Below, piece by piece: positions 1-20,785 of a DNA stretch of 64,000 nucleotides. The stretch comes from Pascua guehoae (Eukaryota; Basidiomycota; Tremellomycetes; Trichosporonales; Trichosporonaceae), in NCBI GenBank assembly GCA_001600415.1, contig BCJX01000001.1:491877-555876 (forward strand), in the 5' to 3' direction. Under the pieces are notes generated by a model. That model was not told the DNA's origin and searched no databases. It worked only from the letters and a program-made list of their open reading frames with translations. The position numbers were made by a program, and so were the translations under genes. Every line of letters begins with the position of its first letter. Within the stretch, counting starts at the first letter, position 1.

Positions 1-2
1 CA

Positions 3-1093
3 CCGGTCCTCGCCGCCCCGAACGCCTCGCTGCCTGTTGAGGTATGGGACGTTGTCTGTGATCACCTTGCAGCAGACGGCCGCGATGCTCTCATCAACTT
101 CATGTGCACGTCGTCCTGGGGCTACCATTCGGCCGCTCGCTCTCTTTACAACACACTCGAGATCGGCTCAAACTTTCCCCGCCTGGTGACCGACCTGCTC
201 CTCTCCTATCAGCAAGGCGTACGTCACTGGTGTAATCGGCATGACGGTTGGTGTGTGGTTGACGACATTTCTCCACCCTCGCCGTCAATGCAGGCACCCA
301 TTGGGAGGCTGGTACTCTTGCAGCGCTATGTCCGCACCCTCCTCATTGGCGACTTGACCGACTTGCTCCTCGGAGTGGTAGAGCAGATCACCGACACGAT
401 CGGTAATCCTGCTCGGACACATTGTGAGGGGTCTGATTCTGAGGAATGCACGAGGCATTGGACGACGACGCGCTCTATGTTGTTTCCCAGGGCCCGGTGC
501 GTCTGGGTGACACCCGCCGGGTACCTTTCGCTTCAAGACCACGCTTCGACTGGGAGGGCGCGCATTTCGGGCCCCGAACTCCACCCTCTGTTGAAGTTCC
601 TCGCATCCGAGTGCAAGCCGTTCCGCCTCGTCCTTCAGTACCCAGACTCCAATGATATCTGTGGTCATCTCAGGGTCTTGACATACGGACGCGAAGTCAT
701 GGACAAATATCGAAACAATCCACAGAGCTTTAGCTGGCGGGATTGGCCGAGGCCGCCTGCGATCAGCCTGGACACAACAACCAAGTACAGTGGCGTAGCC
801 AAGGCAGGGTGGCTGGGCAATCTCACTTGCCAGTGGACAATCACGGAGCTCAAAGTATACTTTTGGCACAAGGCTATGGACCTCTCCGGCATTTGCCCCA
901 AAGTTTCGGATGTTACCGTGATAGACCGAAGGTCTCACGAGCACGGTACGTTGATTGCCCCATCAGTCCATGTACACGTTTCCGGGAGTCAATCTGACTC
1001 GCAGTACAACTTTCACGAGAAGATATCGAAGAGCTCGCTAGGAAATCTGAGGCTTGGGGTCTGCGGAGGATGAAGCTGAAGTTCTCGTCGTAG
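3..1093 (+). CDS. F-box-like family protein, copy 1 (5' truncated by window)
   Basis: The open frame enters from the window edge. It begins with a segment resembling the first helix of an F-box (LPVEVWDVVCDHL), then the family blocks: MCTSSWGYHSAARSLY, HWCNRHDGWC, APIGRLVLLQRYVRTLLIGD, LFPRARCVWVTPAGYLSLQD and a C-terminal region of about 150 residues. Reading straight through ends at 1073. A spliced model is better: donor GTACGT at 946, acceptor CTGACTCGCAG ending at 1004 (phase 1), and a last exon 1005-1093 whose peptide VQLSREDIEELAR matches the last exon of copy 5. By analogy with F-box proteins it may recruit a substrate to an SCF ubiquitin ligase, but no substrate domain is recognised. 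The upstream exons lie outside the window. Confidence 0.72.
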
Positions 1094-1458
1094 GTTGGGG
1101 ATGGGAGGGGATGTTGTATGAGAAAGCAACTGTGTGAGCTGTGGAGCTGGTTGGCGTGGCTCAACATCCTGCCCAGAGTCGAAAGCATGCAAATGTGATG
1201 GACGGCAGCAAGACAGTATGAAGTGAGCACCATCACACGTGCCTCACTCGGGGCTAGAAGCATAGCCGAGATAGCCGAGATTGCCGGCAAGACCGGCAAG
1301 CCACCACGTGATGGATGATGGGCGGTGCGCGGTGCGCCAGATTGAAATGGTCCATCCATCCATCCACTTTGACCACTTTGGCGTGTGTTTGTCTCTTTCC
1401 TTTTCACCTCGTCCTCTTGTTCCACCTCGACAACCTTTCTCTCGCCTTTCACACAGAA
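1094..1458. other. Intergenic, copies 1-2
   Basis: No gene is seen. The right half becomes pyrimidine-rich (about 1390-1455) and probably holds the promoter and leader of copy 2. Confidence 0.5.
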
Positions 1459-2610
1459 ATGAGCTTCCTTCCTTTGTTCCGCAAGTGCACCAGCAGGTCT
1501 GCATGGTTCACCGACAGGCCGGCGCCGAACCGTGCGCCGCCGCAGGCACGGAACCCTTCAGCACTGCCTCCACCACCCCCTACGCCGCCGACGCCACCGG
1601 ATATCCAGCGACGCCACCTGTCTCCCCACCTTGGCGAGAAGCGAGGCTTGGGCGACACTCCCTCCGTTGTCGACGACGCTCTCTCCCAGCCCCGTGACGA
1701 GCAACTCGATGGAGCCCAGCCCCCGCACCGCCCATCATGCCACTCCAGTGGTGGCGTCGCGACCTCCTTCCGTCACAAGAGTCTCCCCTCGCTCCCCTCG
1801 GACGTCTGGATGATGGTGTGCGATCTTCTCGAGGCCGACACCGACCCCAGGTCACGCTGCGCACTGGTCAGCTTCATGCGCACCTCTAGCTGGGCATACC
1901 ACGTCGGCGCGCGCTCTCTTTACCGGACGATAGAGATCGGGCCAGACTTCTTGCGTATCGTCGGCGACCTCCAGCCCGCCACCCAATGGCCCATCAAACC
2001 GAGCGGCGAAGGGCGGTGGTGCAGTCACCATGGCGGCTGGTGCGCGGCAGATGATTCCTGGTCGTGCCCATCCTCGATCCCCGCGCCCATTGGCAAGCTG
2101 GCGCTTTTGCGGTACACGCGCACGCTGATTATCGGGGACGTGTCCAAGATCGACAACTCTGCAATCAAGGCACTTATCGACCGACTTGGCGCACGGACTC
2201 GCGCACACTCGCGCATGGGCCCCGACGGCGTCAGCGCGTGGATTGGGAGGCGTCCGGCCGTCTTTGGCCGCGTGTGCAACGTGCGGATAACAGTCCAGGG
2301 TTACTTCACTCCACCGGGTCGTTGGTCTGCGGTGGTGCCATGCCCCTGGCGCCCCCCTCCAGACTCACTGCTCATCCAGTTTCTCTCTACCGAGGCTGCC
2401 CCACAAACGCTTCAAATTGAACAGCCCTCACTGTCCCAACTCGCTGAGATTCTTCGGGGCAAACATGAAGGACCACCCGTCAACATCTCCGATCCCACCC
2501 TCGTCTCCGCGTTGCGCGACTGGTTTCCCGACGGCAGCACCCCACCTTGGGCCACCGATCTAGGCCGCCACTGGTCTCTCGAACCGTCCACAGTGCACAG
2601 TCTCGCGTGA
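1459..2610 (+). CDS. F-box-like family protein, copy 2
   Basis: A single-exon frame of 383 residues. I chose the ATG at 1459 over the upstream in-frame ATG at 1315 because the resulting N-terminus, MSFLPLFRKC, resembles the short basic N-termini of sister copies (MGCFPPFRKR, MRLFNRTRK), and because the sequence before it is a pyrimidine-rich leader. Residues 1 to about 110 are Pro/Ser/Arg-rich and look disordered. The F-box-like block starts near residue 112 (LPSDVWMMVCDLLEADTD), followed by SFMRTSSWAYHVGARSLYRT, the RWCSHHGGWC motif, APIGKLALLRYTRTLIIGD and the C-terminal block ending WATDLGRHWSL. This copy lacks the phase-0 intron found in most others, and lacks the long C-terminal tail of copies 1, 5 and 9. 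Function is unknown beyond the likely F-box relationship. Confidence 0.75.
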   Translation: MSFLPLFRKCTSRSAWFTDRPAPNRAPPQARNPSALPPPPPTPPTPPDIQRRHLSPHLGEKRGLGDTPSVVDDALSQPRDEQLDGAQPPHRPSCHSSGGVATSFRHKSLPSLPSDVWMMVCDLLEADTDPRSRCALVSFMRTSSWAYHVGARSLYRTIEIGPDFLRIVGDLQPATQWPIKPSGEGRWCSHHGGWCAADDSWSCPSSIPAPIGKLALLRYTRTLIIGDVSKIDNSAIKALIDRLGARTRAHSRMGPDGVSAWIGRRPAVFGRVCNVRITVQGYFTPPGRWSAVVPCPWRPPPDSLLIQFLSTEAAPQTLQIEQPSLSQLAEILRGKHEGPPVNISDPTLVSALRDWFPDGSTPPWATDLGRHWSLEPSTVHSLA

Positions 2611-3058
2611 CGCCCCCTCACCCAAAGCCCCTCGCTCATACGTCTTCACACTGTCTATCCGTAGGAGGTTCACAGTCTCTCCCCAGCCAGTCCCAACTTG
2701 TAGTTTATAGCGCTCTTCGAGTGTGTGCTCCATAGTGTCTTTGGGCGTGAGCCGCTGACTTTCTCGTACCACAACACAGTACCACAACACATCGCATGAA
2801 CTACTGTAGTGACGTGCTGTGACGTGCAAACGACGAATGTGACTGTTTGGCTGCAAGCTAGACTCACGCTGCGCGTAGCTATGCTCGGTTGCAGGCACGC
2901 CACACTGGCAGCCCACAGGCCACAGGGTGCACCCAGGGTCCAACCCTAATCCAATCGCACAAACACTCACTCACTCACTCACCCCACAACCCATCGTCTT
3001 CTGTCCTCTTCCAATCTCTTACCGCCAGAACCCACCTTCTCCCCCCTCTCTCCACACA
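2611..3058. other. Intergenic, copies 2-3
   Basis: No gene is seen. A CA- and CT-rich stretch from 2960 to 3055 with repeated cactcact units precedes the start of copy 3 and looks like its leader. Confidence 0.5.
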
Positions 3059-4381
3059 ATGCGCCTCTTCAACCGCACGCGCAAACCAAAGACCGCGGCA
3101 GATCCCAAGGCGCACACCGAGAAACCCTTAAACGCCCCAGCTGCCACCACCCCACCGCCACCCCCCGCTCCGACCCCACCGGACGAGCCCAAACTCCCCC
3201 GTCGCCGCAGCCACAGCGACGCACACGCCCAGGCGCCCAACGCCTGTCCACTCACCTCGCGCCGTGCGCACTGGAGCCTGGCGATTCGACGCTGCTGGAC
3301 GCGCGCGTCTGTGATCCCCGTGGGTGCCAAGGCTGGCGATGGAGCGTCGCCGACACAGACTGTGAGTTAAGGTCTCCAGATGCCCACAACCATGAGTAGC
3401 GATGCGTTTCTGCGTATTCGAGCTGGGATAAGTATGGAACCAACACAGTCTTGAGGTCAACTTGGTCAAGTCGAACGGGACACCTGACCATGTGTGCAAA
3501 GGAGGATAGCTGAGGATTCCATTCTCCCACACAGCCCACTCGACACACGCCGCGTGCCAGTACTGACGACCCAGAGCCCCAACGCCCCCGCACGCCCGCA
3601 CATCCCCCTCCCCCTCGACATTTTGGCGCTCATCTGCGACTTTCTCGAGTGCGACGACAACCACGAGTCGCGCGCCGCGCTCGGCCGCATCATGCTAGCC
3701 GGGCGATGGGGATACCATGTCGCCGCACGCGCGCTCTATCGCACCGTCGTGATGAATGACGGGTTTGCTGAGTTGCTCATCGACCTCCAACCCGTCCCCA
3801 CCGACATGCGGTGCCGTGCGTGTGTGCACTGCGGGGTCAAACGCTCGCCAGACCCGTCGTGCCTCTCTGCACCCATTGGGAAGGCGTCCCTCTTGGCCTA
3901 TACGCGCAAGCTCGTGATTGGCGACATTGGCTTGCTTGTATCCAAGCACGCTGAGCTCTGGCACCTCATCGATGAGGGGTTGGGGAGGGCGACGCACGTG
4001 CGTTCGGCCATGGTCGGGGGTAGTCACTCGGTGTGGAAGGAATCGCGACCGACTCTGTTCCCCTCTGTGAGGGCCGTTAACATGACGGCTGAAGGGTACA
4101 TGGCCCTTCAAGACCTCCACCACATGCGCGGCCGCGGATGGGACATAGTACGCCATCTAGACCCTCACCCCTTCGTCCGCATCCTCGTCGCCGTGGTCTC
4201 CCCGACCACTCTTACGTTCACTCTTCCCACCAGGTCTCAGGTGCGGTCCCATGTGATTCCGAACCGCCGCGCGCTGCTTGCTCCCACCTCGTGGCTTGAC
4301 AACAAGTACAAGAAGTTGCATACCACCACACCCTGGATCGCTGCCCTCATCGACGCATGGCCTCTTGAACGCTCGGCATGA
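3059..4381 (+). CDS. F-box-like family protein, copy 3
   Basis: Two exons, 3059-3361 and 3575-4381, give 369 residues. The donor is GTGAGT at 3362 and the acceptor TACTGACGACCCAG ends at 3574; both joins are phase 0. Exon 1 encodes a basic start (MRLFNRTRKPKT) and a Pro-rich disordered segment. Exon 2 starts just before the F-box-like helix (IPLPLDILALICDFLECDD), followed by LAGRWGYHVAARALYRT, a degenerate Cys/His motif (CRACVHCG in place of WCxxHxxWC), APIGKASLLAYTRKLVIGD, LFPSVRAVNMTAEGYMALQD and a short end (WIAALIDAWPLERSA). The 213-nt intron sits at the same place and phase as in copies 4, 6, 7, 8 and 9, which supports both homology and the gene model. Confidence 0.75.
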
Positions 4382-5383
4382 TCTCGCGTTGTTCGTCGGG
4401 GTTGGCGTAGGTTTGGCACGCTAGTTGGAGCTATAGGAGTAGCATGAGATACATTATTGTCGAGCACCAAAGTGAAACGTTGCAGCCCAGGTATCTAGAC
4501 GTTTCCAAATGGTCACGTTTGTTCAGTTCACTAGTTCACGAAATGGTACGGTTTCAACACCGAAGCATGCAGGGGGATAAATGACGCAAGGCAAGCGAGC
4601 ATCACATGCTACTCTTGGGCGGCAATCAGCAGCCGAATAGCGTCGTCTGCCGTTCTCCCTCCAAAAAAGGAAACAAAAACAAAACCAAAACAAAACAAAT
4701 TACTTGTGGTGTTATTCGTCTTGATTCTGCGTCTCCGTCCCCCTCACATACGTGGTTTCTGTTAACATGTTCATTTAGAACCGAACGTAAGGCTATGATC
4801 TAGCGCAATGAATTGCTTACCGATTTTGGGGCTGCCACATGGAGTCAAAACCTCTAGTGGAATGAGGTCACGTGATCTCGGGTCTCCATTTCACGTGGCA
4901 TTTCACGTAGCATTACACATGGCATTAATGGCATGGACATTAGCATGGATTGAACTACATTGGACTGCAGACATGGCTGTACTATGCATGTGTACACTGC
5001 CTCTGGAATGCTGCTTGTTGGAGGTGGAAAAGTAGGAAATGAGGTACTGTGGGGCGAATGGGTGCACCGTGCGCCAGTGTGGCAGTCCACAAATGCGCCA
5101 CATTGCCATTTTCGCACTTTTTCCACCATGCATCACAGCCCACAGCGCCAGCCACGCGGCCACGAGGCCACGAGGCCTGCACGAGGCGGGTCCAAATTGC
5201 TCCCGATGCTGTGCAGTGCACGCTAGATGCTGCGCATGGTGTCCAAACAAACAAACAAACACACTCTTCTTCCAACTCGCATCCCACACCCTCTTCAGTC
5301 CACCTTACCTTCGCCCCTGTTGTCCCTCCTCCTCCTCCTCTCTTTCTCTTTTGCTGCTTCCTCGTCCCTCTCCGTCGTCACCA
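4382..5383. other. Intergenic, copies 3-4
   Basis: About 1 kb with no convincing gene. The stretch 4880-4960 repeats short words around catttcacgt and catggcatt. A pyrimidine-rich leader (5280-5380) runs into the start of copy 4. Confidence 0.5.
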
Positions 5384-7451
5384 ATGGGCTGCTTTCCCCC
5401 GTTCAGAAAGCGCAGGCCTGCCGCCAAGCCTCGACCTGGGCCCGTGCGTCACGGCGCCCCCCTTCCTCCCGAGCAACCCCCAACCTCCAAACTCGACCAC
5501 TACGTGTTTACCGAGTTTACCGTCCCCATAAGTGTCACCCAAAGTGTCCCCACAAGTGTCCCCACAAGTGGAGCGAGCCAGACCACCCTCGACGACCAGA
5601 AAAAGCCTCCTCTTCTCCAACCACCTCTCGCGTACCTCCCTTCGCGGAACCCCCGCGCGCACGTCGGTGGCGACAGTCTGTCTCGCGGCTACGACGTTAT
5701 ACAGGCCCAAGTCGCCGAAACATTGCAGCCAAACAAGGCTGACGAGAATTGGATGCCAGATTGGCTGCCAACCCTGCGGTCTGGTGAGGTCATCCGTTGT
5801 TCTTTTACCTTTTCCGGGACGCTCACCGTCAGGTCTGCCCCACTACCACCCGGCCCCTGTCGGTCCGTACGGCGCGTCCGTGCTCTCTGCAACGTCGCCC
5901 TGTGAGAATCCCCAGCCCCAGCGCGCGCCCACAGTCAATGCGGTACCCCAAGCGCCACCACCCCCGGCCACGCCGTCCTCTGCCCTCCCGCCCTCTGCCG
6001 CTGCGAGCTCCTCGGCGGCCCCTTTGGATATCCCGCTCGCCGCGACCCAGCAAGTGGAGACCTCGCCCTCGACACCCCCTGGCCCTCCAACGACGAGCGC
6101 GGCAGCCTGGCCCCGCCGGGGTTTTGTTTCCACGCTCCCCGATGACGACGACGACATGGCGTTGAGTATGCCCCCTCCATTGTTCGATCGCTACGGTGAC
6201 CGAGTTTGGTCCTCGACAGCCCTGGTGTGGGGCGACCAGAATGTGGACGAAGAGGTCGCGGTTGAGCGCACCAATGTAAGTGAAGACTCTGTGAGAGATC
6301 TGGGGGTCACTGTTAAGTGTAAGGGTGTGGCAGGAAGATTTTGTCGTTGTGAACAACTGGCGATGAGATTGACATCAGTGTGCTTCTCACGGATGTTGTT
6401 GAGAATGGACAAGTTAAACGTTACAGTGAAAGACGATTGTGCCAACTCATGTGCACAATTGTGCCGACTCATGTGCACAATTGTGCCGACCCATGTGCAC
6501 AGAAAGCCGAGGTTCACTCCCCCACTGCGTCCCTGTTATCCAACTCCAATCTCCCGTGTTCCAAATCCCGCGCTTGTGCTGACAACCCAGATCCCTCTGG
6601 ATGAGGGGCTACCCCCACTGCCTCACGACCTGCTGTACATTGTGTGCGACCATCTCGGGGCGAGCAACGACCGGGAGTCACGGGCGGCGTTGGTCAGCAT
6701 TATGCGCACCGCGTCGTGGGCGTATTACGCTGCTGCCCGGTCTCTCTATCATACCCTCGAAGTCGGGCGGGATTTGTTCCTCGTACTCGACGACCCGAAT
6801 GACAAAATGTGGTTTGTCGCTCCCATGCTACCCATGGCCATCCGTGATGAACATCACTGGTGTGACAGGCACAATCGTTGGTGCGACTTGGAGACTACTT
6901 CCCGGTCGCCGTCCTCTATGAAACCACCTATCGGCAAGCTGGCACTCTTTCGATACACCAAAATCATCATCGTGGCCAATCTCTCCGGCTATTGCTCCTG
7001 GAGGTTTCTGATTAAATATCATTCACACAGACACCCGGCTACTAGCGCACACGGTGGGCCGGAAATGTGGACGGCCAGAGGCAATCTCTTCCCCAGCGTT
7101 AGGCAGGTTAGAGTGGGACCAGAAGCGTACCTCAGCCTGGGTAACTATGATAATTGGGAGGAACGAAAGGCTCGTCGTCCAGGTGCAAAATACGAGGCGC
7201 ACGGAATTTTGGAGTTGCTAGTTGCGGAGGCAGCTCCGACCTCTCTGTATTTGGACCTCCCAACTCTGTCGGAGGTGGAGGCGTTCGTTGAGGACCCGAA
7301 CTTGCTGCTCACTTTTGCGCGGGGTCTCCTGTCTGAAGGTGCCCAATCATCCATTCGCCCTCCTCAATGGTTGACATTCCTCCGCTCACGATGGGGATTC
7401 GACAAACCGACGGTATCCCACCAGGAACCTCAAGTTAGTCACGCCAGCTGA
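5384..7451 (+). CDS. F-box-like family protein, copy 4 (three exons)
   Basis: Exons 5384-5783, 5833-6275 and 6591-7451 give 567 residues. Intron 1 is 49 nt (GTGAGG...CTCACCGTCAG, phase 1); intron 2 is 315 nt (GTAAGT...TGCTGACAACCCAG, phase 0) at the family position. The protein starts MGCFPPFRKRRP. Residues 1-281 are mostly Pro/Ser/Ala-rich, with a run of five Asp. The F-box-like block follows (LPHDLLYIVCDHLGASND), then IMRTASWAYYAAARSLYHTL, HHWCDRHNRWC, PPIGKLALFRYTKIIIVANL, LFPSVRQVRVGPEAYLSLG and the short end WLTFLRSRWGF. Gly2-Cys3 would fit membrane anchoring by acylation, but position 6 is Pro, which is poor for N-myristoyltransferase. The long intron carries a 22-bp repeat, listed separately. 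Confidence 0.75.
6436..6501 (+). repeat. 22-bp tandem repeat, three copies, in intron 2 of copy 4
   Basis: Three head-to-tail units, ATTGTGCC(A/G)AC(T/C)CATGTGCACA, at 6436, 6458 and 6480 differ at only two positions. GTGCAC and the ACAATTGT junction are palindromic. It lies wholly within the intron. Confidence 0.9.
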
Positions 7452-8492
7452 AACCGCCCCCTGCTGCAAGATCCATGGCGTTATCGTACGTGGACTCATG
7501 GTGACTGCTAAAGCTAATGTTCAGATTGAGACGACAACACGGGCACGATGAGCGCTGTAGGAGACACTATAGCTGTACAGGAGATGTATGAACCAAATGG
7601 TCTTCACTGCCCAGTTGCAACAGGTGCCAGACAGTCCAATAGAAGGGAGCAGTGAGGATACGAACATGCAAATTCCATCTATGAACATGCACACAAACGG
7701 TGACAGCCACGAATGATCTGTTGTGGGGACTCGAGCACGTGCACATGCGCACCTTCGCACATACCCCCGAGCCGCCGCCGTTCCCTCTACAAATACTTGC
7801 CCTCGCGCACTCATCCTATACATCACTCTATCGCTCAGAACAACAGATCAAGTCGGATGATCAAGGTGTCGAGCGAGGAATGGAGCGATAGAGCGATGCA
7901 TGTTGAATACAGTCTACCGAGATGGCCTATGTACTGCGTGCGAGCGAGCGAGCGAGCGCGCACAGCTCGTTCAAGCTCGGGCCCACCAACACAAGGCGTC
8001 TAAACTCTACCTGCCCAATGATGCCTAGATGAGCAGTCAAATGGGGGGGTCTTATGATAAAAGCCAGTGTAATAGAAACGATGAATCAGACCGGCCACGC
8101 TCGACAATGAGCAGCGCAGCCCATGGTCAGGGGAATTGACATGAACGTTCCGGGAACATCGTCCTGGCTCGCAGCGTCGAATATCACCATGGAGCCATCA
8201 TTGAGTGTTGAAATGGGTCGTACACAGCGCGCTCCCTGTTCTGAGAAACCGAGATTATGTACAAAATTGGTGCAAATGAGTGTCATTTGTATCACTCTGT
8301 CCATGGACGGAAGTAAAAACTGCCACATCTCAGCCAGCCACGCGCCAGTGCCGAGGGACAAATTACAAACACATGAACACACTCCCTCGTCTTTGAGTCC
8401 AATACTCTACTCACCACCTCTCCACGTTTAATACCCCATCCTCCTCCCCATCCTCCTCCCCATCCTCCTCCCCTCTGTGTATAGCTACAACC
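7452..8492. other. Intergenic, copies 4-5
   Basis: No gene is seen. It contains one copy of the dispersed tRNA-like repeat (7881-7992) and, just before copy 5, a 12-bp tandem repeat (cccatcctcctc, about 8435-8472) in the pyrimidine-rich leader. Confidence 0.55.
7881..7992 (+). repeat. Dispersed SINE-like repeat, subfamily A, copy 1
   Basis: The unit begins GAGCGATAGAGCGATGCATG and runs through ACAGTCTACCGAGATGG, a CG-rich GAGC tetramer run and AGCTCGGGCC. The same order of blocks recurs at 15223 (+) and, reverse-complemented, at about 13090-13255. There is no coding capacity. Confidence 0.65.
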
Positions 8493-10408
8493 ATGGGCTG
8501 CCTACCGCGATTCCGCATCGGCCGGCGTGGCCCCAAACCGCATCCGCGCACAGGATCGACCCCTCTCGAGCAACCTCTACCCTCCCAGCGTGGAACCGAC
8601 CTGATCACCCCAGAGCCCCCCACTCTTACTCTCGACAGCACGTTGTTTGGCGCGCTTACACTCCCGGCCTTTGAAGATTTCAGCCAAATGCATCCGCCAA
8701 GCCCTCCGCCCAAGCAGCACACGGGTGGTGCCAAGCAGTCTACCCCGGCTCTCCCAGGCCTCGTACACGACATCGGCGCTTCGCCTTCGGGCTCTCTGGA
8801 CGTAGCAGACAACGGGGCTACGACCCCCGAAGGTCCATCTGGATCCCGCTACAAGCTCGCGTCACAGCGGCGCTCATCGTTAGTCGAGGTCGTGAGCAAG
8901 CCTGCCGACCCTGCTGTTCATCTCGAGGAGTTACCCGCGCGCTCGTCGGCAAATATGGCCATCTCGTCCCCCGCAAACCCGCGCTCGTCGACGCCGCGCG
9001 TCTCGCCCCCTCTGCCACCCTCGCTCCCGGCGACGTCATCCTCGACCTCGCGCTCGTCGGTGCCACCGTCTGCGGCTTTACCCTCGGTGACTTTGCCGGT
9101 GGCGACTTTGCCCTCGGGGCCCACGCTTACTGCCGCCTCGCCCGCTGTGCTCTCTCCCTCTGTTCCCTCGCCCTCGGTTCCCTCGCCCTCTGGCCCCTCT
9201 CCCTCGGCTCCCTCGGCCTCCGCTCCCTCCCCCGCTGCTCCCTCTCCCTCCGCTCCCTCCCCCGCTGCTCCCTTGCCGCCGGTGGACTCCTCTCCCACCG
9301 TGGCCACCCGCGCCGCGTCCCCGCCACTCGACACCGCCAGCTCGACTATGCCACCCCTCGGCCCCATGAGTTCCCCGCTTCCGTTCGAGCTTTGGTACGT
9401 CATCTGCGACCACCTGGGGGCTTCCCAGGACCAAGCTTCTCGTGCGGCGCTCGCTCAGGTCATGCGCACTTGCCACGCACTGTACCACGTGGCCGCGCTG
9501 CGGCTCTACCAAACAATCGTCATCGACAAAAACTTTGGCCGACTTGTCGAGTGCTTGCCATCCCTTCCCAAGAAGCATGGTGAACAGCGCTGGTGCGACA
9601 TGCACAAAACGATGTGTGGTACGCTAGACATTCCGTGGGCGCCACCAGCGCAAGCTCCGTTGGGGACCCTGGAGCTCGTTCGGCGCTTCTGCACCACCGT
9701 TGTTGCCAATGTACTGTGCAATGACGTGTTGCGAAAGTGGTTTGACAGGGTGGGCAAGAGGACGAGGGACCACTGGAACTTTGGCATGCGGAGCGAGATG
9801 GCCACCGACGATTTTGCAGGGCTGCCGTGGCATACTTCACGCCCCGCCCTGTTTCCTCGCGTTGGCCAGGTCGTCATAACCGGGCGAGCCTACATGGTCC
9901 TGCAGGACTTTTACCTCGGGACCCGCAGGCAACACCCGCTTGTGGAGCTCATTGGGACCGAAGCCGAGCCCGACAGTCTCTGTGTCAACTACCCGACGTT
10001 AGCAGAAATCCGTCGGCACGTCCGCCCCGCTGTTGCGGATGACCCGGGGCGTCTATGCTTCTTTACTAAGGAGTACACGGAACACGAGTCGCGTTGGTTG
10101 GGGGTGTTTACGTTTCATTGGCGACTCGCACGCCTCACGCTCCACACAACGAGTGACTCGCACGACATGTCCAGAATCGACCCTTCAGTGCGCAGCGTAG
10201 CAACAATCAACCGCTACACTGGGAAGTTTGGTAAGTTGACTCGTCCCTCTCCTCGCGCGTCAGAGGGCATTAGATCTGACTAGTAGCACAAGTGTCGCAC
10301 GAGCAACTCGAGCAGGCTCGGAACGCCGCCAAAGAGCACCATCAGAATGGTCCTCGTAGAAACTTCTCCTGGACGGAGGACGTGGGTAGGCAAGGCGACT
10401 ATTACTAG
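8493..10408 (+). CDS. F-box-like family protein, copy 5 (long Ser/Pro/Ala region)
   Basis: Starts MGCLPRFRIGRRGP. The first exon, 8493-10230, carries about 290 disordered residues, including an (A/S)PSxPS repeat tract at about residues 215-266. The F-box-like block follows (LPFELWYVICDHLGASQD), then QVMRTCHALYHVAALRLYQT, QRWCDMHKTMC, LFPRVGQVVITGRAYMVLQD and a long C-terminal region. Reading straight on stops at 10283. A better model splices from GTAAGT at 10231 (phase 1) to a tandem acceptor ending at 10283 or 10286; the last exon to 10408 then encodes AQVSHEQLEQARNAAKEHH, which matches the last exon of copy 1. Total is about 620 residues. The family phase-0 intron is absent. Confidence 0.72.
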
Positions 10409-10875
10409 GACGTCCAGGGCAGCCATGGTGTCATCGCTAGAGTACAAAGGGTAGATACGGTCTCTATGCAAGAGGGTACAGGTAGTTGCACGCATTACGA
10501 GTGGAGGATCCAGGTCCGTCGCCGGGTGCCATACTGACACACAGTATCCACGCTGCCACACTGTCACATGCCACATGCCACATGGCAAACGCCGAGGCCC
10601 GACATGGGCCGTCGAGTCCCCAGCTAGCCTAGCTGCTAGCATTTAGCATTTGTAACTACCTACACTAGTGTCAGACAACAGAACATACACAAACACAAAC
10701 ACGTTCACTCGACTCAACACCATTCGCTTCCATTCTCTTTAGCTGTGCCATTTTTCTCCTCCCTCCCCAGAGCAACGCAACCCCAGTGCCGACCAAGCGT
10801 AAGTTCAAGCTCAACCTCTAACGCCACAGAGCTAACCCCAAGTCTCGCAGCGTGCACGCCGCCTTCCCGCCCGCC
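10409..10875. other. Intergenic and leader of copy 6
   Basis: No separate gene. A typical small intron (donor GTAAGT at 10799, acceptor at 10850, 52 nt) lies just before the chosen start of copy 6 and is probably a 5'UTR intron, since no ATG is seen in the upstream exon. Confidence 0.5.
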
Positions 10876-12308
10876 ATGTCCTCTCCCACAACGAGCTCCG
10901 CACCCGACCCCGTGGGCCCGAGCACGGCGCACCCCTCGACATTGTCTGAAGCCGACGCGACGACCACCGACGTCGCGGCACCGAGCCCCACCCCGTCCAC
11001 CCGGCTGCGCACCCGCCCGAAACCCCCGCCAAGTACATGGCGCACAGGCCCTCCCCCGGCTTCCGTGTCGCTCAAGGGCAATTCTCCCCCGTGCGCGGGC
11101 GCCCAGAGACACGCCAAGGTCGTCGCTGCGGCGCTTGCCAAAGTGGCCGCTGCACCGTACCCGCAGACTGGTGAGATCTGGGCGGGTAGCGCATCATGTG
11201 CCCAGAGTGGGAGCGAGCAGAGTCCACCTGTGAGTGAACATTCTCCCAACATGATTAACTGTGGGGATCAGACTATGTTTATGTGGGCTAGCCTTGTCCA
11301 GTATAGCAACCATATTGGATGTTCCCGGTGCCGAGTTGAAGATGGCATCAGGGAGCGATTGTGCAGAGAATGGCAACGGACAGAGGATGGCGATTTGCCC
11401 AGCACGGCGATGTATCGAGAATTGCTATCCCCCAGACTACCCCAATCCAAACTCTAGTGCTGACAACCCAGCTTCGCGATAGGAAGACGAGTGAACCCAT
11501 CCTTCTGGAAACGCTGGCCCACATCTGCGACACTCTCGGCGCATCCGACGATGCCGAATCGCGCGCAACGCTGGCTACAGTCATGAGAGTGTGCAAGAGT
11601 GCCTATTACACATGGGCTCTCGCACTCTACCGAACACTCGTGGTCGGACCACAACTGGGTCGCGTGCTCGCGGACCTGCAGCCGTTCGCCGCCGAGGAGG
11701 ACGCGGCCGAGAAATTGCCACTGCCGTCCTCGCTCCCTCCGCTGATCGGCAAGCGGGCCCTTCTCGGATTTACCCGCCACCTCGTCGTCGGCGACGTCAA
11801 GCTCCTCCACTCTGGCGTGTTGCTCCGCATCACCCAGGTGCTGGGCGAGCGGATGCCGGCTCTGTCGGAGACAGATGGCCCCCAAAGGCGCATGGCAACA
11901 TGGGCAACGAAGAGGCCAGCCCTGTTCCACGCAGTGCGCACGGTGACAATGTCCGCCACCGGACTGATGTCACTGCAAGACTTGTACTCGAGCGACCACA
12001 GCAATACATTCTTCTCCGACCAGAGTTCCCACCCCATCACCCCCTTCCTCTACTCGGAAGTGGAACCGACCTCGGTAATTTTCAGAATGCCGACGAGGTC
12101 CCATATCCGCGTCTACCTCGATCTGCGTGTGCCTGGCAGGAGGGGCTCGCTTTATCACTTCATCGCCGAGGGCAAGTTTCTACAGTGCCTCGACAAGTAC
12201 CGCGGACAGTGGAAAGATGCCGCCTGGTACGTGGCTCTGCGTCGCCACTGGCCACTCGACGAACTGTCGTGCACTGGTGATGTCGCGGGGGACGAGGAGG
12301 AAGATTGA
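10876..12308 (+). CDS. F-box-like family protein, copy 6
   Basis: Exons 10876-11229 and 11472-12308 give 396 residues. The donor is GTGAGT and the acceptor TGCTGACAACCCAG, phase 0, at the family position. Exon 1 (MSSPTTSSAPDP...) is Pro/Thr/Ala-rich and, unlike its sisters, lacks the basic MGC-type start. Exon 2 starts with an F-box-like helix (ILLETLAHICDTLGASDD), then TVMRVCKSAYYTWALALYRT. The Cys/His motif is missing. PLIGKRALLGFTRHLVVGD, LFHAVRTVTMSATGLMSLQD and AAWYVALRRHWPLDEL follow, with an acidic end. This copy is the closest relative of the broken copy at 13466-13852. Confidence 0.75.
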
Positions 12309-12625
12309 CGACGACCATATGGCATCCTTTGCTGTCCTTCACACTTGATAGGTAGTTTTCTCATTAGTCTGCAACAGTGTTTATGTGACTCGAAACTTCA
12401 GTGGCATGTCCATCATACGTGTGGAGGCTCCTGAGATGTTGCAGAGTAGGCCGCCCATCGTGATGAAGACGACTACGTGACACTCGATGAAGACAGAGCA
12501 TTTACACACAATGTGTCAACCACGGTGCGTGAGTCTCAGCGAGTACAAAAAAAAAAAAAAAAAACAATTCAGAATAACCAAGAGTTTGTTGCTCAGCCGC
12601 TATGGTTGAGACCAGAAATGTCGAA

Positions 12626-12757
12626 TGAGCGATAGAGCGATGCATCGCATGAATGCGCGCGAGCGCGTATATGAAGGGTATGAGCGATGGCTCGTGCGTA
12701 CGCGCGACGGCCCATGCGTACGTACGACAGCGCGTGCGAGGCTCGAGTCCCACAACC
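12626..12757 (+). repeat. Dispersed SINE-like repeat, subfamily B, copy 1
   Basis: Begins GAGCGATAGAGCGATGCAT, passes a TATATGAAGG stretch and ends GTGCGAGGCTCGAGTCCC. TGGCTCGTGCG about 50 nt before the end resembles a tRNA A box, and GGCTCGAGTCC is one base from the B-box consensus. The same arrangement occurs at 15425 and 31589. Confidence 0.6.
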
Positions 12758-13089
12758 CCAACGCCATGCCATGGTACAGGTGCGTCCCCAAATTCATGAG
12801 ACTACACGGCCAAATGATGGCATGGCAAGCAACCACGCTGGTGTTCCCTACTCGTTGTACCCTGCATTTCGTGCGTGTGCGTGCACCCAAGCTCACCGTG
12901 GCAGTCTCACAACTTTTCCGACACACCTGCCTGAATGCTGAAAGGAGCCGTGTTGGGCGTGTCTAGTGAATACGTTTCATGTGGTACACGTGCTCTGGCA
13001 ACTCTAGGTTGTCCCAAAACTGGCCTTGGCTTGCCAGTTACAAGACCAGAGGGCACTAGCACAATTATGCCAACTGGCTCATTCTGCCA

Positions 13090-13255
13090 CATCCACGATG
13101 TGTTGGTTGGAGCGAGCTCGCCCGAGCTCGCCCGGGCTCCCACCTTGATCGAGTGAGCTGTGCGCGTACGCACGCAGTATATAGGCCATCTCGGTAGACT
13201 GTATTCAGCATACATCGCTCTATCCCTCGCTCGGCACGATGCACTATACGACATT
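13090..13255 (-). repeat. Dispersed SINE-like repeat, subfamily A, copy 2 (inverted)
   Basis: Read on the minus strand, it shows the GATAGAGCGATG start, the block ACAGTCTACCGAGATGGCC and GAGCTCGGGCGAGCTCG, in the same order as the copy at 7881. Confidence 0.65.
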
Positions 13256-13465
13256 AGACGGAACAATAGATCTCGCCTGTACAGCACACTCTGCGTGATG
13301 GGCACACATCCCCTGATGTGTACACCTGTCTCACTGCCATGTGATGTGATGTGCACAGCACTCTTGCATCACAGCGGGCACCCACCAGCTATATAGAACT
13401 AGCCGACCCAACTCTTGTTACTCTCTTTCACCAGGCCCTCTCTTCTTCCCCGTCATACCATCTAA

Positions 13466-13852
13466 ATGCAGACTCGGTCCCATATCCGCGTCTACACCCA
13501 CCGCCACCCAAAGTCGGTGCATGGTTACGGGTCCGACCTGCAATTTGAAACCTGCCTCAATAAGCACCAGTGACAGTGGAGAGAGCTCGATTCGTACGTG
13601 GCTCTAAGTCGCCACTGGCCCCTCGACGAAGGGTCGTGCACCAGCGATTTGACGGCCAGCTGTCCCCGCCGAGCGTCGACCAGGCCACGTTTGGCCATCC
13701 CCAACCTGGGGTTGACGATTCGCTCCGCCTCTGTGCAGAGGAAAGGAATGATCGGGTGGGCCGCCGGGTGAAGCAGAGTGGTTTGCCCCTTTGGGCGCGT
13801 GCAAGTCTTGCAGTGACATTAGTCCCGTGGCGGACATTGTTTGTCGACAAGG
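13466..13852. pseudogene. Broken, partly inverted relic of copy 6
   Basis: On +, 13471-13648 repeats two pieces from the 3' end of copy 6 (TCCCATATCCGCGTCTAC and CGTACGTGGCTCT..GTCGCCACTGGCC) with frame breaks. On -, about 13848-13700 repeats the preceding part of the same gene, including ACAATGTCCGCCACSGGACT and a peptide block SATGLMSLQDL. The two parts now point in opposite directions, so the copy was duplicated, split and partly inverted. It cannot encode the family protein. Part of it may have been taken up as a 5' exon of copy 7 (donor GTGAGT at 13891). Confidence 0.75.
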
Positions 13853-14017
13853 CGTGCCATGCGGTTGATGTGGACGGAGCGCTATGGCCTGTGAGTTAGA
13901 ACCTCCCGTGCACAGCTGCTACATCTGTAGCGGTAGGGACTGCAACGAGCTTGAGTGTGTCGGATTGGGGATGGACTTGAACCAGAACGTGCCCAGATCT
14001 CAGGCTGACCACCCCAG

Positions 14018-14782
14018 ACCTCCAACCATCAAGGGCGCCCCCCTCCCCCCGACGTCCTCGCCACAATATGCGAGATCCTCATTGAGACCAATGACAAGGC
14101 ATCCGTTGCAACCATCATGCGTTGCTGCACGTGGTCTTACCACGTTGGCGCATGCGTGCTCTACCGTACGCTCGAGCCCGGGCCCAAATTTGCGCGTCTC
14201 GTCCAAGATGTGCGTGGAATGCGCACGCGACCAGAGGTGAAGGGGCGCCGCTGCGACCTGCATCGTGAGGTGTGCGACACCGAGGATGGGTGCTCGGGGG
14301 CAGAGTCGCTGCCCGCTCCCATCGGTAAGGCGGCGTTGCTTCGGTACTGCCGCACGCTTGTCATCGCGGACGTATTCGCCCAGTACCCCATCGTCCTCCA
14401 CAACCTCGTCACGCGTCTCGGGGACAGAACTCTTCGCCACTCGTCGACACGCGGGGGTCGAGTCGCGACGTGGAGCACAACACGACCCATGCTCTTTGCC
14501 GGGGTGAAGGCCGTGCGCGTCACACCCCAAGGCTTCTTGGCCGTCAACTGGCTGTGCCGCCCCCACCGACATTATTCGCGCCCGCCCCACCCCGAACACG
14601 GCTTCATCCGTTTCCTGTCCACCGAAGTGGCACCGCCCACCTTCGATGTCACGTACCCATCGGATTCGGAAATGGCCCAGCACTTCGGCGTCTCTCTTGC
14701 CGTCTCCGCGAACAATGTCGCCCAATTCCGCCAACAAGCTTCTTGGGTCGGCGCGCTCCGCTCACACTGGCGCATTTGGTAG
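14018..14782 (+). CDS. F-box-like family protein, copy 7 (5' exon unresolved)
   Basis: The second exon is clear: acceptor CTGACCACCCCAG ends at 14017, phase 0 as in the other copies, and the frame runs to 14782 (254 codons plus stop). Blocks are PPPPDVLATICEILIETND, TIMRCCTWSYHVGACVLYRT, RRCDLHREVC, APIGKAALLRYCRTLVIADV, LFAGVKAVRVTPQGFLAVN and the end SWVGALRSHWRIW. No good start codon exon was found. An open frame without ATG ending at a phase-0 donor at 13891 precedes it, but that frame is made from the inverted relic of copy 6. The gene may therefore be 5'-damaged, or may use an upstream start I cannot identify. Confidence 0.62.
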   Translation, partial: TSNHQGRPPPPDVLATICEILIETNDKASVATIMRCCTWSYHVGACVLYRTLEPGPKFARLVQDVRGMRTRPEVKGRRCDLHREVCDTEDGCSGAESLPAPIGKAALLRYCRTLVIADVFAQYPIVLHNLVTRLGDRTLRHSSTRGGRVATWSTTRPMLFAGVKAVRVTPQGFLAVNWLCRPHRHYSRPPHPEHGFIRFLSTEVAPPTFDVTYPSDSEMAQHFGVSLAVSANNVAQFRQQASWVGALRSHWRIW

Positions 14783-15222
14783 ACCGAATTCGGTAGACCG
14801 CATTTGGTTAAGGTGTGGGTGTGTTCGTGGAGTGGATGTGTTGTACAGCACCACGGTGACACTCTGTTGAGACAACTGTGCTTGGTGTCATTGCCATGCA
14901 TAGCATTGAGGTGGTGGGGACGTGGGGACTAGAGTGTTGGAGCATTTGTGGCGTTGCAGTGTTTGGTTCCCTCGACCATGTGGCCTGGCCCTTGTCCGTT
15001 GAATGGCTGGTCGGATCGTGGGACCCTCGCCGAATCTCCATCTACTTTTCACTTTGTAAACTCCCTCGTGCAAATTCGCTCGACTCGTTGCCATAACATA
15101 GAGGCAATTACGGTGGCACACACTGAGGCTCCTAGTCGGCTCCTAGTCGGCTCCAACGTCCAAGATCAACACTCGTACTCTGAATCCCCCTCTTGTCCCA
15201 GGCCGCGCTCGCAAAGTATTGC

Positions 15223-15340
15223 TGTCAATAGAGCGATAGAGCGATGCATGTTGAACACAGTCTACCGAGATGGTCTGTATACTGTGTGCGAGCGAGTGAG
15301 GAGCGAGCTCAATGAGCTCAAGCTCGGGCCAACCAACAAT
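15223..15340 (+). repeat. Dispersed SINE-like repeat, subfamily A, copy 3
   Basis: Has AGAGCGATAGAGCGATGCAT, ACAGTCTACCGAGATGG, a GCGAGCGAG run and AAGCTCGGGCCAACC, in the same order as at 7881. Confidence 0.65.
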
Positions 15341-15424
15341 TGCGACTACCACTTTCACTTTGAGCTTGAGTGTGAAGTTGAGCATCGGCATGTTCTGCGT
15401 AAGCCCAAAGGTACGATATGTGTT

Positions 15425-15560
15425 GTAGTGAGCGATAGCGCAATGCGTAGATAGAGTGCGCGCGAGATTATATGTACTGCAGAGAGCACTCGGTAGCTCG
15501 AGTGTATGTATGACGGCGAGTGCGTGTGCGCACGTGCGAGGCTCGAGTCCCTACAACAAG
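15425..15560 (+). repeat. Dispersed SINE-like repeat, subfamily B, copy 2
   Basis: Starts GAGCGATAGCGCAATGCGT and ends GTGCGAGGCTCGAGTCCC. GGTAGCTCGAGTG resembles a tRNA D-arm/A box, and GGCTCGAGTCC a B box. Confidence 0.6.
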
Positions 15561-15955
15561 ATCTCCCTGTTACTGACGATTCATGCATGTTTGGTCCTGT
15601 ATTTCCTTGAAGAAAAAGGCCCTGAAAAGGTGACATGCGCTCACCGAGCTCAAAGTTAGACCTCCTCAATGCTTAGCGAACGCGCCTGTGGATTGCGCTG
15701 TAATAGACAGTTTACTGTAGCCAGATGTCGGGAGAGATGCAAAAATACAGCACATTCAGAATGCAGGCTTGCAGGATGGCTTACTGCCACATCGCCACAT
15801 GTGGAATTCTGACCCGCGTACCCTGCACCCTGCACCCGGCGACACACCAACGCTGGACAATACTGACAAACACTTGTCAACTCGACAACCCTTCCATTCT
15901 CTACTTCTCTTTCGTCTCTTGTACCACTTCTTCCCCATTCTGTAGTGTAACCACC

Positions 15956-17680
15956 ATGGGCTGCTTGTTCTCCTTCAAACAGCTGACCCTCCACAAGCGC
16001 CGGCGTGGCCGCCAGCAAGAGCAGCCCGGCCACCCACCTCCCCATCCCGACACCCACGCCTCTCCGCGGCCGCCGAGACTTCCCCCGATCCCAGGTGCCG
16101 CGAGCGCACTCGCCGCGTCCACGCCGCTCCCTGGAGCGCACACCAGCACTTCCGGGGCTGGGACGGTCCCAAACGTCCCCACGCTACCCTCCGCGCCCTC
16201 CACTGCCGGCTGGGCGAGCTCCGTGTTGGCCACCGCGGTACTCGCGGCGGGAATGACAGTTGGGCCGTCGACAGACGCCGTCCCCGCTCCCACCGCGCTC
16301 CCTACCGCGCCCCCCACCGCGCCGCCCACCCCAGCCACCGTTAGTGTTGACGAGACGCAAGGAGAGAGTGTGAGTGACCACCAACCAGACCCCAATCGTG
16401 GAGGGCAGGAGGATAAACGAATGCTCCTCTCGGTGCAAGGGCTCCCAAGTATTCAAAGTTATGGTGCTGATGGTCCAGGAGCAAAAGAACGGCATTGTCC
16501 AGGACACGGTTGTTGGAGACAGCCCAGAAGACCAGGTGAGCAACTTACATGTCCTAGCTCGGCCTACGTTATCGGTTGGGTCACCGCCTTGAAGGACATG
16601 GATGGCCAAATGACCACCGTCTGCGCCAATTCTCACACCTAACGTGTTTCAGTACTGACAAGCTAGAAGAGTCTGAGGCACGCAGTCGAGGAGCCGGCTG
16701 TTACCGTTAGCGAGCACGAGCTAGGAGAGAGCGAGAGTACCACCTGCCCCTCACCGTTCATGGAGCCATCTCGATATCAGGTCACAGACGACTTGGACCA
16801 AATTGGGCATCTACCTCTACACCCTCGATATACCGTGCTGACAACCCAGGCGTCACAGAGTGATGCGCACCAGAAGACCGTTGTTGGTGACCGTCGAGCC
16901 GAGAGCGATCCTGTGCAGCTGCCGCACGACATGCTGTACCTTGTCATCCGCCACCTGGGTGACGACAAGGACCAACTCTCTCGCGCAGCTCTCTCCGCCA
17001 TCATGCAGACGTCTCGGTGGGCGTATCGCGCCGCCGCGGGCGTGTTGTACGAAACGATAAAGCTAGACCGAGACGCGCACCGCTTGTTTTCAGACCTGGC
17101 GCCCATCTGCATGGCGGGACACGACAAGGACAAGAGTCTGTACGGGCGTTGCCTGTGCAAGCGGTGCAATCAAGGGAGTGCGCCATCAGCAGGTGCTGCG
17201 ACTGTTCCTATGGGCAAGAGGGCGCTCCTGCGCTACACGCGCCACCTCATTGTGCACGATATGCACCTCTTCCCAACTGTAGCGCAGTCAATTGTCTCCA
17301 AAGTCGGGCCGAGGTTCAACTACCACCGCGACCCTCCACCATCGACGAGGTACTACAGTTGTAGGTTCTGGAAGACGGGCCGCGAAGCCATCTTCAGCGG
17401 CGTCCACTGCGTGACGATTACGGGAAGAGGCTACATGACACTTGTGGGACTCGGGTGGATTTCAACGGACCCAGAGAACCCATCTCTCACGTTCCTCCGT
17501 CACGAGGTAGCCCCGACCACTCTGCGGTACGTGAGGATCCGCCCCCACACCGAGGACACCACGCCCCCGAGCCCGGATTCGGTCAAGCCCACCTATTGCT
17601 CTCACTGGTGGTGGCTCGATATGTCGCTCCGTCCCTACTGGTCTCTTCAAGAGCCCCCGTTCGAAGTCAGCCTTGAGTAG
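15956..17680 (+). CDS. F-box-like family protein, copy 8
   Basis: Exons 15956-16369 and 16850-17680 give 414 residues. The intron is 480 nt (GTGAGT...TGCTGACAACCCAG), phase 0, at the family position. It starts MGCLFSFKQLTLHKRRRGR. Gly2, Cys3 and Ser6 make this the copy that best fits an N-myristoylation plus palmitoylation signal. A Pro/Ala/Thr-rich segment follows, then in exon 2 LPHDMLYLVIRHLGDDKD, AIMQTSRWAYRAAAGVLYET, a degenerate Cys motif (RCLCKRC), VPMGKRALLRYTRHLIVHD, a GVHCVTITGRGYMTLVGL block and the short end YWSLQEPPFEVSLE. The long intron could hide a further small exon. The stop lies about 450 bp from the convergent copy 9. Confidence 0.73.
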
Positions 17681-18129
17681 CGCGTGGCAGGCGCGGCAGG
17701 CGCTCGTGATCATCCGACTTGGCCATCCGAGGATAACCCTACTCGACTGCTGTTTGCTCGTCTCACGTGGTCGGTCGATCGGTCTGTCTCTCGCTCAACC
17801 ACAATCCACTCTGGTCATTGCACTCTGCCCTATGCAAACTCATTGGTTCTGTTTCTACAACACATGAAGAGTCAATATTATCTGGGCCCATGAGCCGCGT
17901 TCGAGTTCGTTGGGAGACTGCCGTCGAGAGAGACCGCCTTAGGACGTCGTGAAAATGTTTGGCATCAATGGACGTGACTCGTGACTAGAGTAGTATAGCT
18001 ATGATACACGCTACGGCTCTTTAGTAGGCTCAAACCAACGCCAGCACTCTGAAACCGCCGCGGGCCGGCACGGCCAATGCTAGTGACTACCGTAGTGCGT
18101 CCAAGTGCAGTTCGCAGTCGAAACACGCA
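17681..18129. other. Convergent 3' intergenic, copies 8-9
   Basis: Nothing recognisable. It separates the 3' ends of two convergent genes. Confidence 0.5.
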
Positions 18130-20785
18130 TCAAAAGCGCGGCGCAGACAGCGAACGGCTGCTGCTGCGCGAGCTGGCGCGCTTCTGGCGAATCATGCCCG
18201 TGACGCCGTCGTCGGCCCATGCGTGAGTCTTGTCCTGGCGGTCAGCACGTGCTTGGGGATGGTGATAAAGTCGGCCAGCGGCGGCGGCAAAGATCCAGCC
18301 ACCGCTCGGCTACCTAGCCGCGGTTTATGACAACTGGTGCCGTCCCACTTTGTGCCTGTACAGTGTGGATGGGTTTCCGATCACCGATCGTGGGTGGGAA
18401 CAAGACCCCGCAATTGAGGGACGGCAGGGATGCAGTGGAGACCGAGGAGGATGCAGGCACAAGGACAGGCAAAAGTACGATTGTGGCAGGAACGAGGCAC
18501 AGGAACCACCCAAAAACAAAAACGTTTCCGGCCCTACGAGCTGCATCTCGTGGCAATCACGCGCATACACGCACATGTGCGCATGATCGTACGCCAGATT
18601 GGGCCAGATGGCTCGATGGATCGATGACAAGCTCATCGAAACTCTAAACTCACACAGGTGCGGTTGAAGTTTGCGGGGTCAATCTCGTGGTCCTGCAGTG
18701 CGCTGCCTCGGGCCGTCCGGCCGCAGCAGGCGCACGGCGAGACGTCGGCGTGGTGCGGCATGGACAGGACGAATGCGTCACCGACATCGGCCGCAATGTG
18801 TTCCTTGTAGCACGCAATGACCTCGGTGTACTCTTCGGCACAGTCGCAGTCGAGGACAAAGTTGGCGCCGACGTTGGCGAGCTCGAGTTCGCGGACCTTG
18901 CGTGTGCTGCTGAGCATGCGGATCATGCGCGCGCAATCGTGCCACATGCCGCCAGAGTTGCGCACGCCATCGGGGTCTTGACAGGTGGTGCTGGTCGTGT
19001 TGGGGAAGGTCTCCGTCGAGGGAGTGTGGTCGTTGGTGGCGTCGTGATTGTCGTTATGGTCGTGATAGTCGTTGTGAGGTGGGTCGTGATGGTCGTTAAG
19101 ATCAATGGAGGTGATGGCTGTCTCTGTGGGGGGAATGTCGCTTGCAGGGTTGTGCTGGAGGGCAAAGATGCGCATGCGTCTCGCGGTAAAGCTCGGGAAG
19201 TGGTGGAAAGCAAAGTCATGCAGGGTAATCTCGTCGATGGGCCAGTATGCGCACAGCTCAACGAGCCACGGGGCAACGTCGCGCACATACTTGCGGCGTC
19301 TCGTCCCGGACTTGCTCTGGACGTCCGCCATGGTGGGGTACTGCACGCATACGGTGGGAGGGGCAACGTCGGCGGCGAGCATGGCGACGAGCGGGTGCGG
19401 TTGCTTGTGGTACTTGGGGTTCAGGTGGTGCCGTTGGAAGTCGAGGTATGCCTGCGCGCTGATGGTGACTCTCTTTACGCGGCTGAATACTGGCGAGCGG
19501 GCTGCGTCCCACACCTCCATGCCGCTGTCTCCTTTGGCCCAGTGCCGGTCCGTCCGTGGACCGAGCTGGGAGACAACGCGAGCCGCCGCCTCGGATGGGG
19601 GGATGCCAGTGATGACCAGGTGCTGGGTATAGCGGAAGAGTGCTAGCTTGCCGATCGGCGACGGGGCTGAGGACGGTGATCGGTCCGAGTTCGGGGTCGA
19701 AGCGTTCGGGACCTGGCACCGGGCGTTGTGCTTCTCACACCACCGCCCTTGGTCGTTCCCGAGAGTCTCTGCACGGATGCCCGCAAACAGACGCTCCAGA
19801 TTGTGTGCGCGGATCTCAATGCGGCGATACAGCGACCGTGCGGCTGCGTGGTAGGCGTAGCTGGCCGTGCGCATGACGTTTGCGAGGGCGGCACGCGAGG
19901 CATCATCGTCGTCGTTGGCGAGGTGGTCGCACACAAGGCAGAGGATCTCTGGGGGCAGAGGACCGCGCTTGTCGACTACACGGCGCTATGTCGTCAGCGT
20001 GGGGTGTATGGCGGTGAGTTGGAGATGGGAACCGGGTGTATGGCGGTGAGGTTGGAGATGGGAACCTGCCACACGATGGCAACATGCTATCCAACACATG
20101 CATGAGTGCCGCTCGTCAACGACAGCACGACAGTGGACTGCTGGAAACGGCAGCCACCTGTCCTCCTTCTGCAGTATCGCGGAGTGTTGAGGCCGAGGCT
20201 GAGACACCTGCCAAGGATATCTACCCCGCCAACGTTGCGGCCAGCACCGGCAGCATTACAGAGCCCTCGGCTGCTGGGAAGAAGGAGCGCAAGCTTGCGT
20301 ACCCCGCTTCCCCAGTCTCCTGACTCATACTGTTGCAGAGCACGTTCATCAAGCTGAAATGCCCATGCCCCTTGGCGTCACACAGCGCCCAGTGCCGTCC
20401 TCCACCAACGATCGCCCGAAGCACGGCCATTGTCCTCCTGAGGGAGATTGTTACTCACGCGTTTCCTCGGCGCCAGGTCGCTCTCGCCACCCTCTGGGTC
20501 CATACTCAGGCCATGGAAGATGGAGACAGTCGACGGCGTGAGGGGGCTCCCGGGCGCAAAGCTCGTCCTACGCGACGAAGCCCTGGACGAAGCCCGCGAC
20601 GGCGACCGTGCACGCGGGTCAAAGAGCCGGGGGTCGAGGCGGAGGAGAGGCTTGTCACGCTTGAGCGTGTCGACGACGGGGATGCGGCGCGGACAGAGCT
20701 TGTAGAAGGGGTCCATGGCATTGCCGAGGTCGATGATGTCCGTGTCGTCGTCGAGGACGACGGTGGGCTGGTATACCACGGCCAT
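18130..20785 (-). CDS. F-box-like family protein, copy 9 (minus strand, His/Asp-rich insert)
   Basis: Proposed exons are 20785-20459, 19985-18654 and 18234-18130; all joins are phase 0 and total about 587 residues. Exon 1 starts MAVVYQPTVVLDDDTDIIDL and is Ser/Arg-rich near its end. The 473-nt intron ends CTGACGACATAG and could contain another small exon. Exon 2 has LPPEILCLVCDHLANDDD, VMRTASYAYHAAARSLYRR, GRWCEKHNARC, SPIGKLALFRYTQHLVITG, FSRVKRVTISAQAYLDFQ, WLVELCAYWPIDEITLHDF, then a low-complexity insert rich in His, Asp and Asn, and a CACCGR segment. The last exon (donor GTGAGT at 18653, acceptor CTGACCGCCAG) encodes DKTHAWADDGVTG and a Ser/Arg-rich end. Reading through instead would stop at 18633. 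The F-box-like core is firm; the first and last joins are tentative. Confidence 0.68.

Follow-up and report, generated by a model that had tools for sequence, protein, structure and literature searches.

What do the closely packed and strongly divergent genes at the start of this stretch of Pascua guehoae DNA encode, and what made them differ so much? The stretch (the window; 64,000 nucleotides, C1:491877-555876, C1 being contig BCJX01000001.1) was analyzed within its genome of 33.6 Mb and 28 contigs. An earlier note, made from the letters alone, had described nine F-box-like paralogues in positions 1..20785. Nine related genes were confirmed there by alignment, with 15 invariant columns in the nine window rows, and by searches of the own genome, and the array was found to have a tenth member, gene 0, upstream of the window at C1:488489-490069. 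The locus was interpreted as an old tandem array of ten divergent F-box/leucine-rich repeat (LRR)-like proteins, which are most likely substrate adaptors of Skp1-cullin-F-box (SCF) ubiquitin ligases, with a probability of about 0.75. The window genes, eight of nine on the plus strand, are given below, and their splice models were inferred from the DNA sequence.

1..1073, plus strand: gene 1, 3' part (F-box and LRR-like body) of a single open frame of 638 amino acids (aa); ATG outside the window at C1:491033, start MGCLPRFRK
1459..2610, plus strand: gene 2, one exon, 383 aa, head MSFLPLFRK
3059..4381, plus strand: gene 3, putative exons 3059-3361 and 3575-4381, 369 aa, head MRLFNRTRK
5384..7451, plus strand: gene 4, head exon from 5384 (MGCFPPFRK), F-box exon 6591-7451, intron 6276-6590 placed by inspection
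8493..10283, plus strand: gene 5, one exon, 596 aa, head MGCLPRFRI
10876..12308, plus strand: gene 6, putative exons 10876-11229 and 11472-12308, without MGC-like head
14018..14782, plus strand: gene 7, F-box exon only, without clear N-terminus
15956..17680, plus strand: gene 8, putative exons 15956-16369 and 16850-17680, 414 aa, head MGCLFSFKQ
18633..20785, minus strand: gene 9, putative exons 20785-20459 and 19985-18633, 559 aa, SPCACCG tail

Genes 0, 1, 2 and 5 each consisted of one open frame starting at ATG. In genes 3, 4, 6, 7 and 8 the intron ends almost identically directly before the F-box, with CTGAC and then an ACCCAG-like acceptor, and gene 9 carried CTGACGACATAG at the corresponding place. 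Splicing of genes 3, 6, 8 and 9 at this end kept the frame and always fell between codons; the frame was preserved across the putative introns of gene 3 (213 bp, GTGAGT...CTGACGACCCAG) and gene 8 (480 bp, GTGAGT...CTGACAACCCAG). The head exon of gene 4 was placed by the head of gene 5, which aligned to 5384-5587 (37%, E 0.001), and no earlier (first) intron of gene 4 was found in splice modelling. A plausible first exon of gene 9 starts with the ATG at position 20785; a search with this exon returned a single other row, at E 0.42, and thus no second copy, and Pfam gave no match. When the whole genome was searched, gene 4 gave 14 rows at E<=0.001 and gene 9 gave 20 rows at E<=10, and the family was confined to C1, with ten copies at 488-512 kb, a truncated copy at 374 kb and a broken copy at 438 kb. 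The remaining six rows of the gene 9 search were weak (E 5.5e-4 to 0.19), and those traced were other F-box genes. No other array gene carrying the C-terminal half of gene 9 was found when this half was used as query. Across 11 core rows, namely the nine window genes, gene 0 and the 374-kb copy, 12 columns were invariant.

The F-box assignment was evaluated by Pfam, profile comparison and structure prediction. The cut-off of the Pfam F-box-like model PF12937 (24.3 bits) was reached by none of the nine window proteins; two matched it below the cut-off, with 12.4 and 14.8 bits, and nothing relevant was found by the Pfam scan in the other seven. The Pfam cut-off gauges how far a protein lies from the model; a separate test was made for homology. 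The array profile (11 rows) matched a profile of 12 dispersed proteins from the same genome at 97.6% (E 3.1e-12), and the score of 93.6 was compared with 12 shuffles of the full profile, which reached at most 14.3. By hhalign, the F-box part alone gave 98.1% (E 1.3e-13, without a shuffle control of its own), and the part after the F-box gave 15.2% (E 0.0017) with a score of 31.2 compared to no more than 12.9 in 12 column shuffles. Among ten dispersed proteins submitted to Pfam, eight were F-box-like at E<1 and two passed the cut-off. As judged from sequence, the array genes are homologues of proteins with an established F-box domain. Structure prediction, which the earlier note had proposed as a check, was carried out for gene 9 and agreed with the F-box-like claim: three F-box helices (4-16, 20-30 and 34-44; predicted local distance difference test, pLDDT, 83-90 per ten-residue block) were modelled, followed by alternating strands and helices, and the core model had a pLDDT of 79.5 and a predicted template modelling score of 0.73. 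F-box/LRR entries made up 7 of the 12 top rows of VIA-align, with modest Z. No significant match was obtained by Foldseek with the predicted model, and the array profile had no match among PDB sequences. Among PDB sequences, the dispersed profile matched a C-P lyase (E 0.0018), which was taken for a chance match in the part that carries the cysteines.

The dispersed proteins were reached through the weak gene 9 matches and through a further search, with one of these matches as query, that recovered gene 9 at E 0.015. They carry the F-box, the LFPxV strand and a PCxxCG tail, and the first two features are common to the array. The tail, or one like it, was present in 8 of the 12 profile rows and, by eye, in gene 9 (SPCACCG) of the array. 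These 12 rows were drawn from weak matches with E values of 0.28 or lower. Four further candidates were not used: L026 and L027 because of long inserts, L029 because it had no similar frame, and L037 because it offered only the tail. Within this genome the claimed expansion was supported, since in a 23-row tree the array formed its own clade, one side of a 99/99 branch that separated it from the 12 dispersed relatives. The array was star-like inside, and the only well-supported pairs were gene 0 with gene 1 and gene 4 with the 374-kb copy. The array tips were 0.28-1.61 changes per column in length, and such long tips suggested an old radiation. Of the array genes, gene 9 seems nearest to the dispersed family, the source of the array; its branch was the shortest in the 23-row tree (0.28), but was 1.08 in the 11-row tree, and no starred fork places gene 9 first. 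In addition, three adjoining F-box genes of the dispersed family were observed at C10:271500-280500, another small cluster. On the smaller contigs C15, C16 and C22, several F-box-like matches, two on each, exceeded the Pfam cut-off, and these are possibly another expansion.

The identity among array members was low, 32-41% over 45 pairs, as had been noticed, and was unevenly distributed: the mean was 46% in the F-box and 34, 28 and 29% in the three following parts. This fits a constrained part facing Skp1 and a freer body, and is no proof of positive selection. Selection for novelty in a conflict, for example in non-self recognition or against viruses or selfish elements, could drive such divergence, and both the less conserved body and the turnover of copies would agree with it. 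Diversifying selection was not shown. The proportion of nonsynonymous differences (pN, 0.40-0.50) was lower than that of synonymous differences (pS, 0.64-0.81) in 45/45 pairs; because synonymous sites were saturated, this test has low power in either direction. Gene 4 and the 374-kb copy, the only pair with less divergence, gave a ratio of nonsynonymous to synonymous substitution rates (dN/dS) of 0.30, which is itself blurred by copying or conversion, as divergence shifted sharply along the pair: pS rose from 0.29 in the F-box to 0.88 and 0.69 in the next two parts, and the two DNAs were alike, at 88%, over no more than 235 bp. According to the tree, age alone accounts for the divergence, and diversifying selection was considered an unlikely driver.

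The N-terminal halves had been thought to differ completely, which was contradicted for the opening block: genes 0, 1, 2, 3, 4, 5 and 8 open alike. The head common to these seven of ten genes is MGCLPxFRK-like (MGFLAKFRK in gene 0), and of 5000 sets of 12-mers drawn at random from these proteins, none reached the summed similarity of the seven heads, which were chosen by eye before the randomisation, gene 3 being the weakest. The DNA pattern for the stricter form MGC[LF]..F occurred four times genome-wide, at the starts of genes 1, 4, 5 and 8, compared with one occurrence in the reversed control; in the window it occurred three times and in 100 shuffles never. The first 140 residues of gene 1 as query gave eight rows at E<=10, including itself and gene 0 (two rows). 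The best other match, at C9:770453 (E 0.003), showed by eye no similar start in three forward frames, and the last four rows had E>1.5. The dispersed genes that were read showed no MGC head, and the genome-wide pattern search located this head only in the array. The array-only head is the most distinctive part of the subfamily. The head is joined to the F-box by a variable linker with many P, S and A residues, in which a second short block (LxLxxSxFGxF-like) was recognized by eye, without a statistic, in genes 0, 1 and 5 and less clearly in gene 4.

The head bears on where the proteins may act. Some yeast F-box proteins act outside SCF ligases, and the array proteins might likewise bind Skp1 and serve in trafficking or as a scaffold, the head providing localisation. 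The conserved F-box, the lack of a demonstrated catalytic partner and the head common to 7/10 genes speak for such a role, but a diversified LRR-like body, here a predicted fold, is the usual layout of a substrate receptor, and this explanation was rated as distinctly unlikely. The N-myristoylation pattern is M-G-{EDRKHPFYW}-x-x-[STAGCN]-{P}. Gly2 was present in five of the seven heads and Cys3 in four, and the pattern was fitted by one, gene 8; acylation of the head is a guess from sequence. N-myristoylated F-box proteins are known, TgFBXO1 and FBXL7, as described in the passages cited (PMC6685633, PMC9338262). The array resembles them as F-box proteins with N-terminal Gly2 (5/7 heads) and differs in that just 1/7 heads fits the myristoylation pattern. 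A bolder version of the adaptor reading is that adaptors placed at the membrane by a perhaps acylated or basic-aromatic head direct diversified bodies against non-self or selfish-element targets, which would make the array a degradation-based recognition locus; we hold this to be a long shot.

Copies in and around the array are not all intact, and the following relics were identified by tblastn and DNA comparison.

13466..13657, plus strand: relic of a gene-6-like body, 48.5% over 68 aa, E 4e-13 (tblastn)
13723..13840, minus strand: inverted gene-6-like relic, E 1.4e-4 (tblastn), DNA 73.8% over 122 columns to 11946-12064
C1:373528-374904, inverted gene-1-like and forward gene-4-like piece: truncated copy or mosaic (L010; tblastn, DNA comparison)
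C1:437563-439747: broken copy (tblastn on fetched stretches)

In the 374-kb mosaic, one piece was 81% identical in DNA to window 491-824, which it matched in inverted orientation, and another was 88% identical to window 6539-6773; the similarity broke off sharply at its ends. Such relics within and near the array, together with gene 7 lacking a clear N-terminus and a C-terminal half of gene 9 found in no other array gene, would suit an array in decay with most copies non-working. In contrast, all ten cores kept an open frame although synonymous sites were saturated, with pN<pS in every pair, and 12 columns stayed invariant in 11 rows, while the nearby relics were broken or short; general decay is thus quite improbable. 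An unrelated look-alike helical domain in place of an F-box, which the sub-threshold or absent Pfam scores and the modest structural Z might suggest, is barely credible beside an F-box profile match to F-box proteins at E 1.3e-13 and a model with three helices where the F-box should be. Two repeats were also observed between the array genes. One of about 125 bp (window 7867-7995, 13169-13228 and 15227-15338) is dispersed, with 43 matching places genome-wide, itself counted, at 75-100% identity. The other, about 130 bp (window 7715-7848, 12624-12756 and 15418-15563), was 68-72% identical in the window and occurred in both orientations, with further copies in the fetched C1 stretches.

Relatives were also searched for beyond this genome; a lineage-specific expansion, as proposed in the earlier note, would have no one-to-one orthologues outside its lineage. 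The F-box and body of gene 5 gave nothing at E<=10 among 1210 candidates in the protein search, and the 11-row alignment nothing at E<=10 among the 7991 candidates scored; this search is word-based, and intron-containing genes may be absent from its database. Each array member had 7-44 exact five-letter words in common with the rest of the 11 rows; any relative no more distant than a paralogue would thus be expected among the candidates scored, up to the candidate limit of the search. As a control, a window gene for the RNA polymerase III subunit RPC2 was run against the same database and gave relatives up to 91% identical.

39886-42660, minus strand: RPC2 gene, nearest database protein 91% identical

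Among the named matches listed for RPC2, the closest were from mushroom-forming basidiomycetes (about 71%); an identity as RPB2 for this gene at 39.9-42.7 kb was ruled out by the protein search. No described family like the array was found in the two protein searches, Pfam, PDB sequences or the open-access papers searched. As both F-box/LRR proteins and F-box expansions in tandem are familiar, the array is a new subfamily of a known kind.

Compared to the F-box/LRR (FBXL-type) receptors, namely plant D3 and MAX2, Skp2, FBXL2, FBXL5 and FBXL17, the array proteins have few and irregular repeats without a recognizable LRR motif, and a long N-terminal linker with a common head. The tandem fast-evolving F-box families of plants and Caenorhabditis, as far as the cited parts describe them (PMC3030570, PMC8665587), are similar in tandem copies, large divergence, and gain and loss. 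The array differs from them in being ten copies, old and star-like, known here from one genome. One Skp1 gene was found in the genome, at C14:275521-275688. In the adaptor reading, Skp1 would bind the F-box, the LRR-like body would bind a target differing between copies, and the variable linker and head may determine where in the cell the adaptor is placed, possibly at a membrane; Cul1-Rbx1 would then ubiquitinate the bound target. The array itself probably evolves by birth and death, as genes are duplicated, copied in part, inverted and lost.

Plants and nematodes have tandem F-box families of their own, for most of which no targets are known. The present array represents an F-box clade that Pfam models score below their cut-off, and as a compact fungal array of ten genes with a head of its own, it offers a small system for asking what such arrays recognise.
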